From assembly GCF_023476645.1 (NCBI RefSeq), contig NZ_JAMCOJ010000003.1, forward strand, positions 434,001 to 498,000: DNA of 64,000 nt, given 5' to 3'. Both the position numbers and the translations under genes were made by a program. Position 1 is the first letter of the stretch; every line of letters begins with the position of its first letter. Positions 16,637 to 63,893 of the stretch are shown here, in pieces. The notes under the pieces were generated by a model. The model did no database searches and was not told the DNA's origin. It saw only the letters and a program-made list of their open reading frames with translations. This DNA is from Cellulophaga sp. 20_2_10 (GTDB lineage: Bacteria > Bacteroidota > Bacteroidia > Flavobacteriales > Flavobacteriaceae).

Positions 16637-18151
16637 ATGTCAATACCTTTTGTTAATTCTATAGCTTCTTGGTTGCTTAAAAAGCGGTATCACCAAATAG
16701 AACTTTTTTTAAAATATCCAGCTGAGGTTCAGGAAGAAGTAATGTTTAAGCTTTTAACTATAGCTAAAGATACAGAGGTTGGTAGAAAATACGATTTTGC
16801 TTCTATTACCAATTATAAGGAGTTTGCAGAACGCTTGCCAATTGTTTCTTATGAAGAAGTTGAGCCTTTTATAGAACGGACAAGAAGAGGTGAACAAAAT
16901 ATTTTTTGGCCAACAAGTATAAAGTGGTTTGCAAAAAGTAGTGGTACTACCAATGCAAAAAGTAAGTTTATTCCGGTTAGTACAGAGGCTTTAGAAGATT
17001 GCCATTACAAGTCTGGTAAGGATCTGTTGTGTTTGTATCTTAATAATAACGAGAACTCACAATTGTTTACAGGTAAGAGTTTGCGTTTGGGAGGTAGTAA
17101 AGATTTGTATGAAGATAATGGTAGTTTTTTCGGAGATTTATCTGCTATTTTAATTGATAATATGCCTTTCTGGGCAGAAATGAGTAGTACGCCAAGTAAT
17201 AAGGTGTCATTAATGAGTGAGTGGGAAACCAAATTAGATGCTATTATTAATGAAAGTAAATTGGAAAATGTGACAAGCTTGGCTGGTGTACCATCTTGGA
17301 TGTTGGTATTGCTTAATAATATGTTAGAGCAAACGGGGAAAACACATTTATTTGAAGTTTGGGAAAATCTAGAGGTCTATTTTCATGGTGGAGTTAGCTT
17401 TAGCCCTTACAAGGAGCAGTATAAAGCTTTATTGCCTAGAAAAAAGTTTAATTACTACGAAATTTACAATGCCTCTGAGGGATTCTTTGCAATACAAGAC
17501 AGGAACAATGCAGACGATTTATTGTTGATGTTAGATTATGGTATTTTTTATGAGTTTATTCCTATGGATGCCTACGGTACTTTAGATCAGACAGTAGTTG
17601 CACTTTGGGATGTGGAGTTGCATAAGAACTACGCTATCATTATTACAACCAATGCTGGTTTGTGGCGTTACAAAATAGGGGATACGGTTAGGTTTACTTC
17701 AGTAAGTCCGTATAGAATTAAGATTACAGGTCGTACCAAACACCATATTAATGTCTTTGGAGAAGAATTAATAATAGAAAATGCAGAAGAGGCATTAAGA
17801 AAGGTTTGTATAAAAACAGCGGCTCAAATAAAAGACTATACTGTAGCGCCTATTTTTATGGTAGGCAGAGAAAAAGGCGCGCACGAGTGGATTATTGAAT
17901 TTAGAAAAGAACCTGAAGATATTGCTCATTTTACAGAATTATTAGATAATGCTTTAAAATCTTTAAACTCTGATTATGAAGCAAAACGATACAATAATAT
18001 TACCTTAAATATGCCTAACGTGCACATTGCCAGGCAGGACCTTTTTTATGATTGGTTAAAAGTTAGAAGTAAATTAGGGGGGCAGCATAAGATTCCAAGA
18101 TTATCTAATAAACGGGACTATATCGATGAATTGCTTCTAATGAACAAATAA
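16637..18151 (+). CDS. GH3-family acyl-adenylate ligase
   Basis: The 504-residue protein has the full GH3 length and pattern. An adenylate-binding loop SSGTTNAKSKFIP lies near residue 100, YNASEGFFAIQ near residue 278, and a C-terminal adenylation lid with the hinge TGRTKHHINVFGEELIIENAE follows near residue 364. Plant GH3 proteins conjugate acyl acids to amino acids through an acyl-AMP intermediate. In Bacteroidota the substrate is unknown. It is followed after 70 bases by a small alpha/beta hydrolase that may act on a related acyl product, which is an inference from context. Confidence 0.88.
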   Translation: MSIPFVNSIASWLLKKRYHQIELFLKYPAEVQEEVMFKLLTIAKDTEVGRKYDFASITNYKEFAERLPIVSYEEVEPFIERTRRGEQNIFWPTSIKWFAKSSGTTNAKSKFIPVSTEALEDCHYKSGKDLLCLYLNNNENSQLFTGKSLRLGGSKDLYEDNGSFFGDLSAILIDNMPFWAEMSSTPSNKVSLMSEWETKLDAIINESKLENVTSLAGVPSWMLVLLNNMLEQTGKTHLFEVWENLEVYFHGGVSFSPYKEQYKALLPRKKFNYYEIYNASEGFFAIQDRNNADDLLLMLDYGIFYEFIPMDAYGTLDQTVVALWDVELHKNYAIIITTNAGLWRYKIGDTVRFTSVSPYRIKITGRTKHHINVFGEELIIENAEEALRKVCIKTAAQIKDYTVAPIFMVGREKGAHEWIIEFRKEPEDIAHFTELLDNALKSLNSDYEAKRYNNITLNMPNVHIARQDLFYDWLKVRSKLGGQHKIPRLSNKRDYIDELLLMNK

Positions 18152-36218: not shown

Positions 36219-37187
36219 TTAAGCGTTTTGAGCTTTAAATTCTTTTAATTTTTCTATTAGCTTAGGAACTACTTCAAAAGCATCGCCTACAATACCGTAA
36301 TCTGCAGCTTTAAAGAAAGGTGCTTCTGGGTCTGTATTTATAACAACTTTTACTTTAGAAGCGCTTATGCCGGCTAGGTGTTGTATAGCTCCAGAGATAC
36401 CAATTGCAATGTATAAATTACTTGCTACTGGTTTTCCTGTTTGACCTACGTGCTCACTATGAGGTCGCCATCCTAAATCCGAAACTGGTTTAGAACAAGC
36501 TGTTGCAGCGCCAAGTACGTCTGCTAATTCTTCTATCATTCCCCAATTTTCTGGACCTTTTAATCCTCTACCACCAGATACAACGATGTCTGCATCTGCG
36601 ATAGTAGCTTTGCCAACAACTTTGTCTACTTCTATAGACTTAGTAGAAAAATCTGCGTCTGATAATGTCGGAGAAAAATCTTCTGCTGTAGCTGTAATGT
36701 TATTTTCAATAGCGCCAAAAGAATTGTTAGACACACCAATAACTTTAATATCTGTGTTAATAGTTGTGTGTGCAAAACCTTTATTGCTAAAAACTGTTCT
36801 CTTTACTTTAAAAGGAGATGTGCTATCTGGAGCAGTAACTACATTAGGAGTATAACCAGCTTTTAACTTTGCTGCTACTATTGGAGCTACATATTTACTA
36901 TCTGTGCTAGAGCCAATTACAATAACTTTAGATCCTTCTTTAGCTGCTGCTTCAGTTATTGCGTGTGCAAAAGCTTTGGCGTTAAAAGTTTTAAGGTTAT
37001 CGCTGCTAACATTTAATACTTTAGTAACACCATAGTTACCTAAAGTGTCGTTACTATCTGCGTTAAATGAGATGGCAGTAACTGTTGTACCTAATTGTTG
37101 TGCTACAGCGTAAGCATAAGAAGCTACTTCAAAAGCACTCTTTTTAAATTTTCCGTTTTCTGATTCTGTATATACTAAAACTGACAT
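36219..37187 (-). CDS. etfA: Electron transfer flavoprotein alpha subunit
   Basis: The 322-residue protein has the C-terminal FAD-binding domain with GRGLKGPENW, the AATACSKPVSDLGWRPHSE segment and VGQTGKPVASNLYIA. It pairs with EtfB, encoded directly upstream, to carry electrons from acyl-CoA and other dehydrogenases to the quinone pool. The two genes are separated by two bases. This housekeeping ETF lacks extra ferredoxin domains. Confidence 0.97.
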   Translation of the reverse strand: MSVLVYTESENGKFKKSAFEVASYAYAVAQQLGTTVTAISFNADSNDTLGNYGVTKVLNVSSDNLKTFNAKAFAHAITEAAAKEGSKVIVIGSSTDSKYVAPIVAAKLKAGYTPNVVTAPDSTSPFKVKRTVFSNKGFAHTTINTDIKVIGVSNNSFGAIENNITATAEDFSPTLSDADFSTKSIEVDKVVGKATIADADIVVSGGRGLKGPENWGMIEELADVLGAATACSKPVSDLGWRPHSEHVGQTGKPVASNLYIAIGISGAIQHLAGISASKVKVVINTDPEAPFFKAADYGIVGDAFEVVPKLIEKLKEFKAQNA

Positions 37188-51065: not shown

Positions 51066-51152
51066 TTGGGTGTTACCGCAAGGGTCGGGCTTTTTGTTTC
51101 AATCTTTTTTTTGAAAAAATAAAAAAGGATTTTCACTACAATCCCTAACACA
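51066..51152. repeat. GC-richer intergenic element, possible degenerate copy of a flavobacterial repeat
   Basis: This block starts GGGTGTTACCGCAAGGG, continues with GTCGGGCTTTTTG, and ends with CAATCCCTAACAC. Its ends carry the inverted hexamer GTGTTA/TAACAC. It is richer in G and C than the surrounding spacer. I recall similar GGGCGTT...TAACGC elements between genes in other Flavobacteriaceae. The match is from memory. Confidence 0.45.
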
Positions 51153-51281
51153 AATAAAGTTTCAATTTAAAAAATCGTTACAAAAACAAACAAAAATTAT
51201 GTTTCTGTTATTTAACGGTAGTTGGAAAGCAGAATTCAATATTTTTTCAAAAAAGATTAGGATATTAAATTTTTCTGAGCA

Positions 51282-51289: not shown

Positions 51290-51318
51290 TAGCTCAAAGT
51301 TCAAACACATATTGAATA

Positions 51319-51429
51319 GTTATCAAGAAAGGCGGAGGGATTAGACCCTATGAAGCCTTAGCAACCCTTTGTGCAAAACAAAGAAGGTGCTAAATTCTAC
51401 CAAGTACAGCGGTACTATAGGCAGATAAC
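51319..51429 (+). ncRNA. SAM-I (S-box) riboswitch upstream of metY
   Basis: P1 is a perfect 6-bp stem (GTTATC 51319-51324 with GATAAC 51424-51429). The conserved core is present: GGCGGAGGGATTAGACCC, TATGAAGCC, TTAGCAACC, then a CTTTG/CAAAG hairpin, AAGGTGCTAAATTCTACC and an AGTAC/GTACT hairpin. These are the S-box consensus blocks in the right order. An intrinsic terminator (51496-51540) follows, so SAM binding should stop transcription before metY. Confidence 0.96.
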
Positions 51430-51495
51430 GAAACAAGCTTTTTTTATTTCAAAAAAAGGCAAATTTCCAATTTCTTTTTAACTCATTTAATTTTT

Positions 51496-57810: not shown

Positions 57811-58218
57811 ATGCTATCCAAGAAAACCAAATACGGGCTAAAGGCCTTAACATATTTAGCCAAGAAAGAAGATAGGAATCCGGTTCCTATTGGAGAAATT
57901 GCACAACAGAATAATATTTCTCAGAAATTTTTAGAGAGCATCCTATTAATGTTGCGTAGAACTGGTGTTTTGTCTTCTAAAAAAGGCAAAGGTGGTGGTT
58001 ACTATCTGATAAAAGAACCAGCAGAAATTTTAATGACAGATGTTATTAGAGTTCTGGAAGGGCCTATTGCAATGGTACCTTGTGTTAGTTTAAACTTTTA
58101 TGAAAAGTGTGATGATTGCCCAGATGAGGGTACGTGTTCTGTACACAAACTAATGCTAAAAGTTAGAGATAGCGCACTAGAAATTTACAGAAATACAACA
58201 CTTAAGGACTTAATTTAA
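57811..58218 (+). CDS. Rrf2-family transcriptional regulator with four-cysteine cluster
   Basis: The 135-residue protein starts MLSKKTKYGLKALTYLAKK, which matches the exact N-terminus of Rrf2 proteins. It has the winged helix with QNNISQKFLESILLML and the glycine wing GKGGGYYL. Four cysteines (91, 100, 103, 109) lie in the sensor region. IscR and NsrR use three cysteines there for an iron-sulfur cluster, and CymR has none. Its position before the sulfate-reduction operon makes it the probable regulator of cysteine synthesis genes. The ligand, whether Fe-S cluster, zinc or a thiol precursor, is unknown. Confidence 0.9.
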   Translation: MLSKKTKYGLKALTYLAKKEDRNPVPIGEIAQQNNISQKFLESILLMLRRTGVLSSKKGKGGGYYLIKEPAEILMTDVIRVLEGPIAMVPCVSLNFYEKCDDCPDEGTCSVHKLMLKVRDSALEIYRNTTLKDLI

Positions 58219-58331: not shown

Positions 58332-58348
58332 TCTACTAAAACCATAGG
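58332..58348. promoter_or_regulatory. Candidate Rrf2 operator, upstream imperfect copy
   Basis: TCTACTAAAACCATAGG matches the 17-bp CCTA-N9-TAGG pattern at seven of eight arm positions. It lies about 70 bases upstream of the better copy at 58401 and about 40 bases before the -7 box. Confidence 0.4.
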
Positions 58349-58387
58349 ATTTGTATGTTTTTTAACAACTTATGTCCCTAAAAGTTT

Positions 58388-58395
58388 TACATTTG
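58388..58395 (+). promoter_or_regulatory. -7 box TACATTTG of the sulfate-reduction operon
   Basis: An exact TAnnTTTG box lies 41 bases before the DUF2061 start codon. The candidate operator at 58401-58417 covers the expected transcription start. Confidence 0.65.
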
Positions 58396-58400
58396 TAATT

Positions 58401-58417
58401 CCTACTAATTAAATAGG
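58401..58417. promoter_or_regulatory. Candidate Rrf2 operator before the sulfate-reduction operon
   Basis: CCTACTAATTAAATAGG is a 17-bp palindrome with perfect 4-base arms and six of eight pairs overall. It lies directly at the predicted transcription start, a typical repressor position. The same pattern occurs at 61750-61766. Confidence 0.6.
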
Positions 58418-58435
58418 GTAATAAAAATTAACTAA

Positions 58436-58699
58436 ATGATTGCTGATCAATTGATTTTAAATAAGGAAACTTCTAAAGGAAGCTACAAATCAGACAAACA
58501 GTCAGAGAGTCCAAAAAGGAGCATAATTAAATCTATTAGCTGGAGAATAGTTGGTACCATAGATACCGTTTTAATTTCTTGGTTTGTAACAGGAACTTTA
58601 AAATTAGCATTCTCTATTGGTGTAATAGAATTAGGGACAAAAATGGTATTGTATTTTTTTCACGAACGTGCTTGGAATTCAATTAAGTGGGGTAAATAA
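58436..58699 (+). CDS. DUF2061 membrane protein
   Basis: The 87-residue protein contains one DUF2061 domain: KSISWRIVGTIDTVLISW followed by a hydrophobic helix and GTKMVLYFFHERAW. DUF2061 proteins are small membrane proteins often linked or fused to sulfate-activation enzymes (CysN/CysC-type). A role in sulfate uptake or handling is suspected but unproven. It is the first gene of the operon with cysH, cysD and cysN, and cysH starts 20 bases later. Confidence 0.85.
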   Translation: MIADQLILNKETSKGSYKSDKQSESPKRSIIKSISWRIVGTIDTVLISWFVTGTLKLAFSIGVIELGTKMVLYFFHERAWNSIKWGK

Positions 58700-58719
58700 T
58701 AACGTATAAGTATAGTATA

Positions 58720-59343
58720 ATGGGTCTTACAGAAGATATAATTAAAAATTTAAATGCTCAGTTTAGAGGTATTCCTCCAGAAGAAATTATTTCTTGGGCT
58801 GTAGAATATGCTAGAAATGCTGTAATTACAACTAATTTTAGACCCTATGAGGTTGCTATACTAAATGCGGTTACGGCAATAAAAAAGGATATCCCTGTTG
58901 TTTGGTGTGATACAGGTTACAACACGCCAAATACATATAAACACGCAGAGGAGATAATATCTACATTAGATTTAAACGTAAAATTATACGTGCCCTTACA
59001 GACTAGTGCACACAGAGATGCCGTAATGGGTATACCATCTATAGACGATCCAAAACACAAAGAATTTACAGAGCAAGTTAAGCTAGAGCCTTTTAAAAGA
59101 GCAATGGCAGAACACAAGCCAGATGTTTGGTTTACAAACCTAAGAAAGGGACAAACGGCACTTAGAGATTCTTTAGGAATTTTAAGCTTAAGTAAAGACG
59201 GAGTTTTAAAAGTGAGCCCGTTTTACCACTGGTCAGATGTGCAGTTAGATGCATATTTAGCAGAACGTAATTTACCAAACGAACATAAATATTTTGATCC
59301 CACTAAGGTTTTAGAAAACAGAGAGTGTGGTTTACATACCTAA
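58720..59343 (+). CDS. cysH: Phosphoadenylyl/adenylyl-sulfate reductase (CysH)
   Basis: The 207-residue protein has the CysH family C-terminus RECGLHT with catalytic Cys203, and DTGY near residue 64. The only other cysteine is Cys63. The paired CC and CxxC cysteines that hold the 4Fe-4S cluster of bacterial APS reductases are absent, as in PAPS-type enzymes. No APS kinase gene is seen beside it, so whether it uses APS or PAPS is open. It reduces activated sulfate to sulfite with thioredoxin and is followed by cysD. Confidence 0.9.
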   Translation: MGLTEDIIKNLNAQFRGIPPEEIISWAVEYARNAVITTNFRPYEVAILNAVTAIKKDIPVVWCDTGYNTPNTYKHAEEIISTLDLNVKLYVPLQTSAHRDAVMGIPSIDDPKHKEFTEQVKLEPFKRAMAEHKPDVWFTNLRKGQTALRDSLGILSLSKDGVLKVSPFYHWSDVQLDAYLAERNLPNEHKYFDPTKVLENRECGLHT

Positions 59344-59388
59344 TTAGGACTAAGGATTAAAATAAATAAAATATTAAAAAATCAAGAT

Positions 59389-60336
59389 TTGGAAACATTG
59401 ATAAACGAAATAAAAGCACAAACAACAACCAACACTTCAGTACAAGGGTTAGGTAACGCTTTAGAAAACGAAGCTATTTACATTTTTAGAGAAGTAGTAG
59501 CTCAGTTTGAAAAGCCTGTTTTACTGTTTTCTGGAGGAAAAGACAGTATTACATTGGTGCGTTTGGCTCAAAAAGCATTTTGGCCAGCAAAAATTCCTTT
59601 TCCATTAATGCATATAGATACAGGTCATAATTTTCCTGAAACTATTGCTTTTAGAGATAAATTGGTTAAAGAACTTGGCGTAGAGCTTATTGTAAGAAAC
59701 GTGCAAGATTCTATAGACCAAGGTAAGGTAGTAGAAGAAACGGGTAAGTATGCTAGTAGAAATATGTTGCAGACAACCACGCTTTTAGATGCTATTGAAG
59801 AATTTAAATTTGATGCTTGTATAGGTGGTGCCCGTAGAGATGAGGAAAAAGCAAGAGCAAAAGAGCGTATTTTTTCTGTTCGTGATGATTTTGGACAATG
59901 GGATGAAAAAAACCAGCGACCAGAATTGTTTGATATGTTAAACGGTACGATAGAAATAGGACAAAATGTACGTGTTTTTCCTATTAGTAACTGGACCGAG
60001 TTAGATGTGTGGAGCTATATTCAGAAAGAAGATATAGAAATTCCATCTATCTATTTTGCACATCAAAGAAACATCTTTTTAAGAGACGGTTTAATCTGGT
60101 CTGCAGAAGACGATGTTGTTTTTAGAGCAGAAGATGAGGTTGTAGAAGAACGTTGGGTGCGATTTAGAACTGTTGGAGATATGTCTTGTACAGCTGCAGT
60201 TTTATCTAAAGCAGATTCTATAGATAAAGTAGTAGAAGAAATTAGAGACTCTAAAATATCTGAACGTGGTGCACGTATAGATGATAAACGTTCTGAAGCT
60301 GCTATGGAAAAAAGAAAACAACAAGGGTACTTTTAA
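59389..60336 (+). CDS. cysD: Sulfate adenylyltransferase subunit 2 (CysD)
   Basis: The 315-residue PP-loop ATPase has LLFSGGKDSITLVRLAQKAF near residue 45 and PLMHIDTGHNFPET downstream. The conserved GGARRDEEKARAKERIFS and C-terminal KRKQQGYF are also present. With CysN it makes APS from ATP and sulfate. No ATG is available upstream; the start is TTG at 59389, 46 bases after the cysH stop codon. It is in the middle of the sulfate-activation operon. Confidence 0.95.
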   Translation: METLINEIKAQTTTNTSVQGLGNALENEAIYIFREVVAQFEKPVLLFSGGKDSITLVRLAQKAFWPAKIPFPLMHIDTGHNFPETIAFRDKLVKELGVELIVRNVQDSIDQGKVVEETGKYASRNMLQTTTLLDAIEEFKFDACIGGARRDEEKARAKERIFSVRDDFGQWDEKNQRPELFDMLNGTIEIGQNVRVFPISNWTELDVWSYIQKEDIEIPSIYFAHQRNIFLRDGLIWSAEDDVVFRAEDEVVEERWVRFRTVGDMSCTAAVLSKADSIDKVVEEIRDSKISERGARIDDKRSEAAMEKRKQQGYF

Positions 60337-60448
60337 AAAGTACAGCGTACTTAGTCAAAAGTATATAGGTTAAAAAGAAGTTTAAAATAAAAAAAAGTAA
60401 GAGTAATAAAGTCTTTGTACTTGCTACTTTATACTTAATACAGATAAA

Positions 60449-61696
60449 ATGAACGTACTAAAAATAGCAACAGCAGGTAGTGTAGATGATGGTAAAAGTA
60501 CCTTAATTGGTAGGTTGCTTTACGATACAAAATCGCTTACTGAAGATAAATTGGAAGCCATTAAAAAGAGCAGTGAACAACGTGGGTACGATTACCTAGA
60601 TTTTTCATTGGCTACAGATGGTTTGGTTGCAGAACGTGAGCAAGGTATTACTATAGATGTTGCTCATATTTATTTTTCAACACCAACAAAAAGTTACATT
60701 ATTGCAGATACTCCTGGTCACGTAGAGTATACTAGAAATATGGTTACAGGAGCATCAACTTCTCAAGTGGCTATTATTTTAATTGATGCTAGAAAAGGTG
60801 TTATAGAACAAACATACCGCCACTTTTTTATCAATAATTTACTACGTGTAAAGAATATAATTGTAGCTGTTAATAAAATGGATTTAGTAGATTATTCTGA
60901 AGAGGTGTTTAACAATATAAAAAAAGATTTTGAAGCACTAAATGCCAAGAGTACTTACGGAGAACAAATAGTTAGTTATATTCCTGTTAGTGCCTTAAAA
61001 GGTGATAATATTGTAGACAAAACAGCTGCAATGTCTTGGTACAATGGCGATACAATTTTAGGTCATTTAGAGGAGTTGGAAGCACAAGATGTCTATGACG
61101 CTGGTAAGGTTCGTTTTCCTGTACAAACAGTAATTAGACCAAAAACAGATGAGTTTCACGATTTTAGAGGGTACGCTGGTAAAATTTCTGGTGGTAGCTT
61201 AAAAGTTGGTGATGCTGTAACTGTTTTACCTTCATTAACTCAATCTAAAATAAAAGAGATTTTCTTCTTTGATACCTCTTATGACGAGGCTCCTGCAGGT
61301 AGTTCTGTAAACATCACTTTAGAGGGTGATATTAATGTTACTAGAGGAGATATGTTGGTTAAAACAGGGGAACTTCCTAAAATTGAAAAGCAAGTTACTG
61401 CTACAATTTGTTGGATGGATAGTAAAAACCTAGTTCCAGGAACAAAGTATATTGTACAGCACAACACCAACCGTGTATTATCTAAAATAGAAAGTATCAA
61501 CAGTGTTATTGCTACAGATTATACAGGAGAACAAGAAAATCATAACAAGTTGTCTTTAAATGAAATAGGAGAAGTAAGTATTAAACTTAGTAAACCTATT
61601 TATTTTGATAGTTATGCAGATAATAAATCGAACGGAGCTTTTATTTTAATTGATGCACAAACCAATACAACGGCTGGTGCAGGATTTATAAATTAA
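60449..61696 (+). CDS. cysN: Sulfate adenylyltransferase subunit 1 (CysN GTPase)
   Basis: The 415-residue GTPase has P-loop GSVDDGKST at residues 10-18, DTPGHVEYTRNMVTGAS near 91 and VNKMDL, followed by EF-Tu-like beta domains. GTP hydrolysis drives APS formation by CysD. It ends without a CysC (APS kinase) domain, unlike the CysNC fusions of many bacteria. It is followed by a hairpin terminator, so it closes the first sulfate-reduction transcript. Confidence 0.96.
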   Translation: MNVLKIATAGSVDDGKSTLIGRLLYDTKSLTEDKLEAIKKSSEQRGYDYLDFSLATDGLVAEREQGITIDVAHIYFSTPTKSYIIADTPGHVEYTRNMVTGASTSQVAIILIDARKGVIEQTYRHFFINNLLRVKNIIVAVNKMDLVDYSEEVFNNIKKDFEALNAKSTYGEQIVSYIPVSALKGDNIVDKTAAMSWYNGDTILGHLEELEAQDVYDAGKVRFPVQTVIRPKTDEFHDFRGYAGKISGGSLKVGDAVTVLPSLTQSKIKEIFFFDTSYDEAPAGSSVNITLEGDINVTRGDMLVKTGELPKIEKQVTATICWMDSKNLVPGTKYIVQHNTNRVLSKIESINSVIATDYTGEQENHNKLSLNEIGEVSIKLSKPIYFDSYADNKSNGAFILIDAQTNTTAGAGFIN

Positions 61697-61710
61697 GTTG
61701 AGGAAATACT

Positions 61711-61741
61711 AAAAAGAATGCTTTTTTTAAGCATTCTTTTG
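61711..61741 (+). terminator. Intrinsic terminator after cysN
   Basis: AAAAAGAATGCTT pairs with AAGCATTCTTTT around a T-rich loop, followed by further T residues. It separates cysN from the sulfite reductase gene. Confidence 0.75.
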
Positions 61742-61749
61742 CTTAAAAT

Positions 61750-61766
61750 CCTATTACACCTATAGG
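61750..61766. promoter_or_regulatory. Candidate Rrf2 operator before the sulfite reductase gene
   Basis: CCTATTACACCTATAGG has perfect 5-base arms (CCTAT/ATAGG) and the same 17-bp spacing as the site at 58401-58417. It lies 36 bases before the start codon, after the cysN terminator. No TAnnTTTG box was recognised nearby. Confidence 0.6.
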
Positions 61767-61802: not shown

Positions 61803-63893
61803 ATGCAAAGTTTTAGAACAGAAATAGAAAACCCAGTAGTAGCTAAAGATATTATAGATTTAGAAGCTAAAATTAGACAGTTTAATGACGGTAAGTTAGA
61901 CGAAGAAAAGTTTAGAAGTTTGCGTTTAGCTCGTGGTATCTATGGTCAGCGTCAGCCAGGCGTACAAATGATTCGTATAAAATTACCTTACGGAAAAGTA
62001 ACGTCTACGCAGCTAAAACGTATTTGTGATGTTTCTGAAGAATATTCTACAGGGCGTTTGCATATTACTACACGTCAAGACATACAAATACATTATGTAG
62101 ATATAGAGCGTACACCAGAATTATGGGCACAACTAGCAAAGGATGATATTACAATTAGAGAAGCTTGTGGTAACGCAGTACGTAATATAACTGCTAGTGA
62201 AACTGCAGGTATAGATGTAGATGAACCTTTTGATGTATCTCCCTATGCACACGCAATGTTTCAATACTTTTTAAGAAATCCTATTAGTCAGGAAATGGGA
62301 AGAAAATTTAAAGTTTCTTTTTCTTCTAGTGATGCTGATACTGGACTTTCTTATATGCATGATCTTGGTTTTATAGCTAAAATTGAAAATGGAGTTAGAG
62401 GTTTTAAAGTTCTTTTAGCAGGTGGTTTAGGTTCACAACCACGCCACGCAGAAGAGTTGTATACTTTTTTAGAGGCCGATAAAATTATTCCGTTAATGGA
62501 TGGTGTTATTCGTGTTTTTGATAGATACGGAGAACGTAAAAGTAGAGCTAAAGCCAGAATGAAATTTTTACTTAAAGATTTAGGTTTAGACGGATTTAGA
62601 GCATTGTTAGAAGAAGAGCAAAATGCAATTCCGCAAGATTCTTTTCCTATAGATGTAGATGCATATCCAAAGGTAAAAGTTGCAGATGCTAAAGTACCAG
62701 AAGTAACTATTAAAAATACAACTGCTTTTGAGCAATGGAAAAGCACCAATATTGTTCCTCAAAAACAACAAGGTTATGTTGCTTTAGGGATAAAAGTAAA
62801 ACTAGGCGATTTTTATATTGAAGAAGCACGACAATTAGCAGATTTAGTAGATGCATATGCAGCGGGAGAATTTCGTTTGTCATTGCGTCAAAACATATTA
62901 ATACCATACGTAAAAGAGGAGTTGGTTCCTTTCTTTTATACAGAGTTAGAAAAATTAGGCTTTGTAGAGGCTGGTTACAACAAAGCATTAGATATTACTG
63001 CTTGTCCTGGTACAGATACGTGTAATTTAGGTATTGCAAGTAGTACTGGTATTGCAGCAGAATTAGAGCGCGTTATTACAGCAGAATACCCACAGTATAT
63101 AAACAATAAAGATGTTGTAATAAAAATTAGTGGATGTATGAATGCCTGTGGTCAGCACAATATGGCAAACATAGGTTTTCAAGGAATGTCTGTGCGTACA
63201 AAAGATAAATTAGTAGCACCTGCTTTACAGGTATTGTTAGGTGGCGGCAACTTAGGAGATGGTAATGGTGTTTTTGCAGATAAAGTTGTAAAAGTGCCAA
63301 GTAAAAGAGGTCCAGAGGCGTTGCGTTTAATCTTAAATGATTTTGATGCCAATGCAAACGGACAATCGTTTACAGCATACTACAAAGAAAAAGGAGAGCA
63401 TTACTTTTATGATTTTCTAAAGCATTTAACGGATGTAGATAATTTAACTCAGGAAGATTTTATTGATTGGGGAAATACAGAACGTTATGAAAAAGCTATT
63501 GGTGTAGGGGAGTGTGCAGGTGTGGTTATAGATTTAATTGCGACTTTATTGTTCGAGAGTGAAGAAAAAATAGAAAACGCAGCAACAGCATTAGAAGATA
63601 AAAAATGGTCAGCTAGTATTTTTCATTCGTATTCTGCAATGGTAAACTCAGCTAAAGCATTGCTTACAGCACATAATACAAAAACCAATACACATATAAG
63701 TATTATTAAAGATTTTGATACTCATTTTATAAGCAACGGCTTACTAGAATTACAAACTTCTTTTGAGGATTTAGCGTTGCAAATAAAAAGCAACAAACCA
63801 ACACAAGAGTTTGCAGCAGCGTACCTAAAAGATTCTAAAGTGTTTTTAGAGGTGGTACAAAAATTTAGAGAAAAAGAATTAGCAGAAGCTTAA
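61803..63893 (+). CDS. Siroheme sulfite/nitrite reductase with C-terminal HEPN-like extension
   Basis: The 696-residue protein contains two ferredoxin-like and siroheme-binding repeats. The cluster ligands are Cys401 and Cys407 ([11 protein letters not shown]) and Cys445 and Cys449 ([11 protein letters not shown]), which hold the coupled 4Fe-4S cluster and siroheme. It should reduce sulfite to sulfide. About 180 residues after the usual end form a helical tail (including [19 protein letters not shown]) resembling HEPN-type four-helix domains. Context with cysHDN and SUMT favours sulfite over nitrite. A candidate operator precedes the gene, and SUMT starts 4 bases after its stop codon. Confidence 0.9.

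Follow-up and report, generated by a model that had tools for sequence, protein, structure and literature searches.

What do the three related 17-letter palindromes that stand before the sulfate-reduction genes of Cellulophaga sp. 20_2_10 do, and which protein reads them? The stretch of DNA considered here (the window) comprises 64,000 nucleotides of contig NZ_JAMCOJ010000003.1 (positions 434,001 to 498,000; assembly GCF_023476645.1), and its gene order runs from MetZ through the gene of an Rrf2-family regulator (rrf2) and a DUF2061-cysH-cysD-cysN operon (DUF2061-cysHDN) to a sulfite-reductase-type gene (SiR). Judging from the sequence comparisons described below, we propose that the palindromes represent a conserved 17-letter operator of a small regulon, placed before the sulfate-to-sulfide genes of marine flavobacteria and very probably read by the product of the adjacent rrf2 gene. 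That the palindromes are operators of this neighbouring regulator is, taken as a whole, the best explanation we can offer and one we hold with good confidence, because of the outcome of the test in other genomes and the co-occurrence of the motif with rrf2.

The palindromes and the extended motif

An initial annotation of this DNA had noticed a palindrome, CCTA-N9-TAGG, in front of both sulfate-reduction transcription units, and direct reading of the window finds all three 17-mers where they had been placed, on the forward strand: a proximal copy, P (CCTACTAATTAAATAGG, 58401-58417), a distal copy, D (TCTACTAAAACCATAGG, 58332-58348), which is indeed imperfect and matches seven of the eight fixed letters, and a copy before the SiR gene, S (CCTATTACACCTATAGG, 61750-61766), lying 3' of an inverted repeat at 61712-61740. 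The regulator gene said to lie directly upstream is there as well (57811-58218, forward strand); it encodes a protein of 135 amino acids with an Rrf2 domain (Pfam PF02082, E 1.7e-37), an identification that also draws on the ortholog alignment and the predicted fold. The search pattern suggested with the palindrome, CCTAYT-N5-ATAGG, carried a wrong spacer, both exact copies being CCTAYT-N6-ATAGG.

As evidence for an operator, the shared palindrome holds up in a longer, oriented and conserved form, but not as the bare pattern, which is common in the genome. Bare CCTA-N9-TAGG occurs at 50 genomic places, compared with 20 for the reversed control pattern; outside the window 41 of 47 places lie inside open reading frames (ORFs), and the third bare-pattern place within the window (17849-17865) is ORF-internal too. 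The six non-ORF places outside the window consist of four identical copies near contig ends, one place before a 65-amino-acid ORF and one without a called gene, and none of the six is among the 41 genome matches of the extended motif. With 50 places, mostly ORF-internal, we rejected the bare pattern as sufficient proof. The four identical palindromes, CCTAGAGTATATCTAGG, adjoin AAAAAGGCC repeats (L089, L098, L099 and L111, on contigs C4, C14, C18 and C58 of G000, the genome of the window) and are a separate repeat element.

The consensus derived from orthologous loci of relatives reads approximately YCTAYTAAA-NNN-ATAGGRTAA, with a constant orientation relative to the gene at cys promoters. Strict symmetry across sites is limited to the CTA-N9-TAG core, and the whole operator is an imperfect palindrome. 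A 33-column model that includes the window's sites puts the three of them at the top of the 41 genome matches (E 5.7e-6, 1.8e-4 and 4.3e-4, P being second at 1.8e-4), a ranking that is not independent proof because these sites were themselves rows of the model. When the window and its closest relatives (the window's clade) were removed from the model and the own genome was rescanned, S came first (E 6.4e-5), D second (E 4.8e-4) and a site before a peroxiredoxin gene third (E 0.0017); an ORF-internal place, listed on both strands, was fourth and P came next. Within the 64-kb window, the same leave-out matrix ranks the three sites first, with scores of 25.1, 24.7 and 20.6, followed by 13.8. The ORF-internal match (G000:C1:325551-325577), which scores on both strands, is most likely due to chance. 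Weaker matrix matches in the window lie at 36631-36647 (15.2; 12.9 with the clade left out) and, inside the DUF2061 coding sequence, at 58613-58629 (15.4; 13.8 with the clade left out).

The test in other genomes used loci around Rrf2 orthologues in named genome records, the best 80 of 583, of which 72 were examined after setting aside six without a downstream cys gene and two identical to training genomes. Their gene order is mainly DUF2061-cysHDN-SiR, with some cysH-SiR. In the interval from rrf2 to the first cys gene, a site with a matrix score of at least 15 is present in 71 of the 72 loci and one with at least 20 in 69, the single miss (L216) scoring 12.4. By comparison, 100 rounds of dinucleotide shuffling produced on average 0.02 of 72 loci (maximum 1), and 100 column-permuted matrices 0.03; outside the target regions, 807,307 positions in the 80 loci contained zero matches at a score of at least 15 and two scoring 12-15 (L194, L212). 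The initial annotation had let its operator stand or fall with conservation before orthologous cys genes, and there the site is retained. Its further view, one site shared by both transcription units, is borne out on the cysHDN side by the same 71 loci and only partly on the SiR side, where the site was found in 32 of 69 named loci and in 9 of 26 training loci.

Association with rrf2 and the reach of the regulon

Of 159 genera of the family, 121 have an Rrf2 orthologue at E ≤1e-30 and 98 have the motif at E ≤0.01. With a threshold of E ≤0.003, the motif was found in 83 of the 121 genera with the orthologue and in none of the 38 without it (Fisher p 1e-15, genera treated as independent); at E ≤0.01 the counts are 94 of 121 and 4 of 38, the four being G021, G074, G169 and G198, among which the matches of G021 and G198 are ORF-internal. 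Among the matches listed (the 87 best), 70 lie 3' of rrf2, at a distance of up to 600 bp and on its strand. The other 17 include 11 that precede DUF2061/cys, SiR or peroxiredoxin genes and six (G173, G182, G175, G172, G111 and G117) that stand in front of genes without relation to these, away from any called gene or within an ORF. Genome G052, from another family, possesses a DUF2061-cysHDN operon with a CysD 86% identical, and has neither an Rrf2 orthologue nor the motif. Conversely, operons remote from rrf2 retain the site in eight genomes (G020, G031, G088, G123, G192, G203, G204 and G206). As for the six loci without cys genes, four of the genomes have a site at the operon at E ≤0.02 (G201, G203, G204 and G206; the match coordinates in G201 are identical to those in G088), and the remaining two, G202 and G205, have a CysD of only 61-62% and no motif match. 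The co-occurrence, the double absence in G052 and the sites at remote operons together support the link to Rrf2, and on these comparisons we consider binding of the sites by this Rrf2 highly probable.

The next target in the own genome is the site 33 bp before the peroxiredoxin gene (NCBIfam PRK13189, 215.5 bits against 211), detected with a matrix trained on cys sites only. An orthologue of this peroxiredoxin exists in 27 of 30 Rrf2-bearing relatives, and 18 of the 27 have the site (score at least 12), which begins 45-57 bp upstream of the start codon; the outer family f5, also Rrf2-bearing, has it in two of two cases. Four genomes without an Rrf2 orthologue have no such site (0/4), three of their proteins being distant, at 46-51% identity. 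The regulon thus seems to include the peroxiredoxin. A [2Fe-2S] ferredoxin gene, preceded by the site in three relatives (G023, G036 and G159), is a candidate member, and targets seen in a single genome (SelO, metK, a NIL-domain protein, a 2-oxoacid oxidoreductase, a GDP-mannose dehydratase, an ABC transporter and others) were not counted as part of the regulon. The small cysteine regulon envisaged at the outset takes the form of a small set of sulfate-reduction genes with an apparent peroxiredoxin member, for which cysteine would be a possible signal.

A number of observations weigh against operators read by the neighbouring Rrf2 protein. The site is absent before the SiR gene in 37 of the 69 named loci and before the peroxiredoxin orthologue in 9 of 27, a second site at score 12 is lacking in 31 of the 72 tested loci, and a site before rrf2 itself was found in 1 of 78 loci, which gives no sign of autoregulation. 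P, second with the clade included, drops to E 0.029 with the clade left out (row 6 of 35, the fifth distinct place), behind an ORF-internal match. The locus counts are not independent events because the loci are related; 12 of the 159 genera are source genomes of training sites, and without them the co-occurrence stands at 71 of 109 versus 0 of 38. At E ≤0.003 a match is missing in as many as 38 of the 121 genera with an Rrf2 orthologue, and at E ≤0.01 in 27; some of these absences could be due to stricter filters and to greater divergence of the Rrf2 proteins. Individual genomes deviate as well: locus L064 (G020) has no site beside rrf2, only one at the distant operon; G029 has a 63%-type CysD locus without the site, which precedes cysH beside rrf2; and in G040 and G053, which are more distant relatives (Rrf2 50-52%), the only site is a weak one downstream of rrf2. 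G024 has an Rrf2 orthologue, yet its 63%-type CysD lacks an upstream site; the rrf2 gene of this genome neighbours metH-type genes, not cys genes, and about 100 bp past it (L063) lies CCTACTTAATTGGTAGG, scoring 11.6, in front of an unclassified gene. Here the regulator might act on further targets.

Promoter geometry and proposed mode of action

A predicted sigma-A -7 box of the TAnnTTTG type (TACATTTG, 58388-58395, forward strand) precedes P, and in 64 of the 72 loci TAnnTTTG ends exactly 5 nt ahead of the proximal site. In Flavobacterium johnsoniae the -7 box spans -12 to -5, according to the available part of PMC6847099. With this numbering and the 5-nt gap, P would cover approximately +2 to +18 and D -68 to -52, which agrees with the earlier placement of P at the predicted start of the DUF2061-cysHDN transcript. 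A dimer bound at such a position should block initiation. A second site (score at least 12) was found in 41 of the 72 loci; the spacing between D and P is 80 bp in 31 of these two-site loci and 75-84 bp in the other 10. For the window together with the six relatives nearest to it the value is 69 bp, which is shorter than 80 bp by 11 bp, roughly one turn of DNA. Many one-site loci have another conserved stretch, near ATTATTCTAAAAAGTTGTTAA, where others have D (examples are L145-L147, L151, L159 and L160, in which it lies upstream of the -7 box). No matching -7 box could be placed for the S site before the SiR gene, and a scan for E. coli sigma-70-type promoters was uninformative (12 found, 16.7 in shuffles).

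With these features in mind, we propose that, when reduced sulfur is plentiful, a dimer of the Rrf2 protein on P would block initiation of DUF2061-cysHDN transcription, and that a second dimer on D, at its fixed distance, might strengthen or tune this repression. The copies before the SiR and peroxiredoxin genes would give sulfate reduction a regulator in common with thiol-peroxide defence, and the peroxiredoxin target would fit a release under sulfur shortage or oxidation. That the regulator acts as a repressor appears likely to us; reduced sulfur as the physiological signal is an assumption that we favour somewhat less firmly.

Let us consider, however, what else the sites might be. They could be the operators of another transcription factor, with rrf2 merely travelling with the cys operon, since adjacency can be hitchhiking and the genome encodes a second, distant Rrf2 protein (G000:C1:437201, 30% identity). 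Such a factor would have to explain why the motif at E ≤0.003 occurs in none of the 38 genera without the Rrf2 orthologue, why eight remote operons in rrf2-holding genomes retain the site, and why G022 and G025, which have only distant Rrf2 proteins, show no motif at E ≤0.01, with the caveat that G022 has no CysD match and G025 one of only 61%; we think it quite improbable. The Rrf2 protein could also bind and mainly activate, D (around -60 to -70) recruiting RNA polymerase and P being secondary. The 11-bp shift of D between clades (69 versus 80 bp), near one helical turn, is what one would expect if D must face the promoter or another site, and a precedent for dual action exists in E. coli, where IscR represses isc in its holo form and activates suf in its apo form (PMC9973013, in its accessible part). 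Yet the near-universal site is the one on the start site, P, 31 loci do without a second one, and the peroxiredoxin site of the Cellulophaga relatives contains TAATTTTG, a -7-like box, so that a mainly activating role looks unlikely.

Two further explanations do without a DNA-binding protein. In almost every locus P is part of the predicted 5' leader, and it might act as RNA, as a leader hairpin or a translation signal; but the same motif stands, as D, at a fixed distance upstream of the predicted start, the strict symmetry extends only to CTA-N9-TAG, a short stem, and none of the sites is overlapped by an Rfam family that reaches gathering score, the region of 50-64 kb containing only an S-adenosylmethionine (SAM) riboswitch and Flavo-1. 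An action as RNA is, on this evidence, very improbable. That the loci are related within one family would, in turn, allow phylogenetic inertia without function, or the matches might be due to chance. The adjacent intergenic DNA has, however, diverged (as judged by eye) while the site and its distances were kept, sites are also present at unrelated positions, in front of peroxiredoxin genes and of operons that have moved, and chance is unlikely given the shuffles and the off-target counts; we give this possibility hardly any credence.

The regulator, its relatives and the surrounding genes

The regulator is an Rrf2-domain protein by score (PF02082, 129 bits against a cut-off of 30; TIGR00738, 119.7 against 73.3), and Cys91, Cys100, Cys103 and Cys109 are invariant in all 20 of 20 aligned Rrf2 orthologues. 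The monomer is predicted with a mean local distance difference test score (pLDDT) of 83.3, the loop of residues 91-99 staying under 50. Its predicted fold best matches CymR (2y75, TM-score 0.82 on the query), and in a sequence-profile comparison IscR of T. potens (4cic) is best (E 1.1e-21) with CymR next. The protein scores well below the membership cut-offs of both named groups, with 91.7 bits against 195 for CymR (NCBIfam NF047409) and 75.3 against 207.55 for IscR (NCBIfam TIGR02010). Cys91, Cys100 and Cys109 align with three Ser residues of the 4cic chain, which we take to be a Cys-to-Ser mutant of T. potens IscR, and Cys103 is an additional fourth.

CymR of Bacillus subtilis and Staphylococcus aureus belongs to the same Rrf2 family and regulates sulfur and cysteine genes. 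Our comparison with it was made at the level of protein and regulon. The predicted CymR regulon of Clostridium acetobutylicum contains an operon with cysC, cysD and cysN (PMC3828012, as far as its available text goes), and B. subtilis CymR has no iron-sulfur (Fe-S) cluster and acts in complex with CysK, according to the accessible portions of PMC9338935 and PMC3828012. The loop of CymR (2y75) is shorter and without Cys, whereas the regulator here has four invariant cysteines in it; since these are missing in CymR, Fe-S or thiol sensing becomes plausible, and we would put sensing via the four-cysteine loop, by an Fe-S cluster or as thiolate, at about even chances. IscR, NsrR and RisR are cluster sensors, from which the extra Cys103 sets the present protein apart. 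The targets and neighbours of IscR concern Fe-S assembly (isc/suf), in contrast to DUF2061-cysHDN, SiR and peroxiredoxin here. CysB performs the same physiological task but is a LysR-type regulator and not, like the present one, of the Rrf2 family. The same difference applies to CysL, described as LysR-type in the available part of PMC2940859. RisR, in turn, has Cys92, Cys102 and Cys108 at a spacing similar to that of the loop cysteines here, and represses from sites that overlap promoter elements, as the accessible sections of PMC9973013 describe.

The genes of the operon and the SiR gene lie on the forward strand. The operon starts with the gene of a small DUF2061 membrane protein (58436-58699; PF09834, E 1.2e-22), followed by a cysH-type reductase of 3'-phosphoadenylylsulfate or adenylylsulfate (PAPS/APS; 58720-59343; PF01507, with NCBIfam matches under the curated cut-offs) and by cysD (59389-60336) and cysN (60449-61696) for the small and large subunits of sulfate adenylyltransferase, which exceed the cut-offs of NCBIfam TIGR02039 and TIGR02034, respectively. 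The DUF2061 gene heads the operon even where this has been relocated from rrf2 (L127, L134, L319-L321 and L358-L360) and is present twice in L134; the membrane protein might take part in the reduction or the transport of sulfate. The inverted repeat with a T-run between cysN and the SiR gene (61712-61740), which the scan placed on the minus strand, does precede S in the way the initial annotation had described, but its standing as the cysN terminator is only possible: the region of 57.7-61.9 kb contains two terminator-like sites, compared with a shuffle mean of 2.0. The SiR gene (61803-63893) encodes a sulfite/nitrite-reductase-type hemoprotein of 696 amino acids (PF01077, PF03460 and PF05168) with a HEPN-like domain at its C-terminus (PF05168, E 3.9e-6, residues 582-674). 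The SAM riboswitch (RF00162, 75.3 bits, 51317-51431) lies some kb before the genes for the homoserine pathway and MetZ, which in turn stand ahead of rrf2, and Flavo-1 RNA (51079-51153) adjoins it on the opposite strand.

No regulator or operator of Bacteroidota sulfate assimilation was named in the literature searched, which covered titles and abstract openings with most subscription papers outside and is therefore weak evidence of absence; in a flavobacterial transcriptome study (PMC9723704), the accessible part of the main text contains neither the word Rrf2 nor the word sulfate. What is described here is a new regulon under a known regulator family and not a new kind of system. Perhaps, and we offer this tentatively, with somewhat less than even confidence, the four-cysteine Rrf2 protein reads Fe-S or thiol status and forms one switch for sulfide production and peroxiredoxin, two dimers at a fixed helical distance clamping the cys start site, in a type of regulon that would stand between those of CymR and IscR with an operator sequence of its own. 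The motif is sharp enough to predict a single regulon readily in more than 80 genera, and it connects sulfate reduction with peroxiredoxin. The small, defined promoter, with two operators at a fixed spacing and a -7 box, is well suited to the study of how a four-cysteine Rrf2 protein might sense sulfur or redox state.

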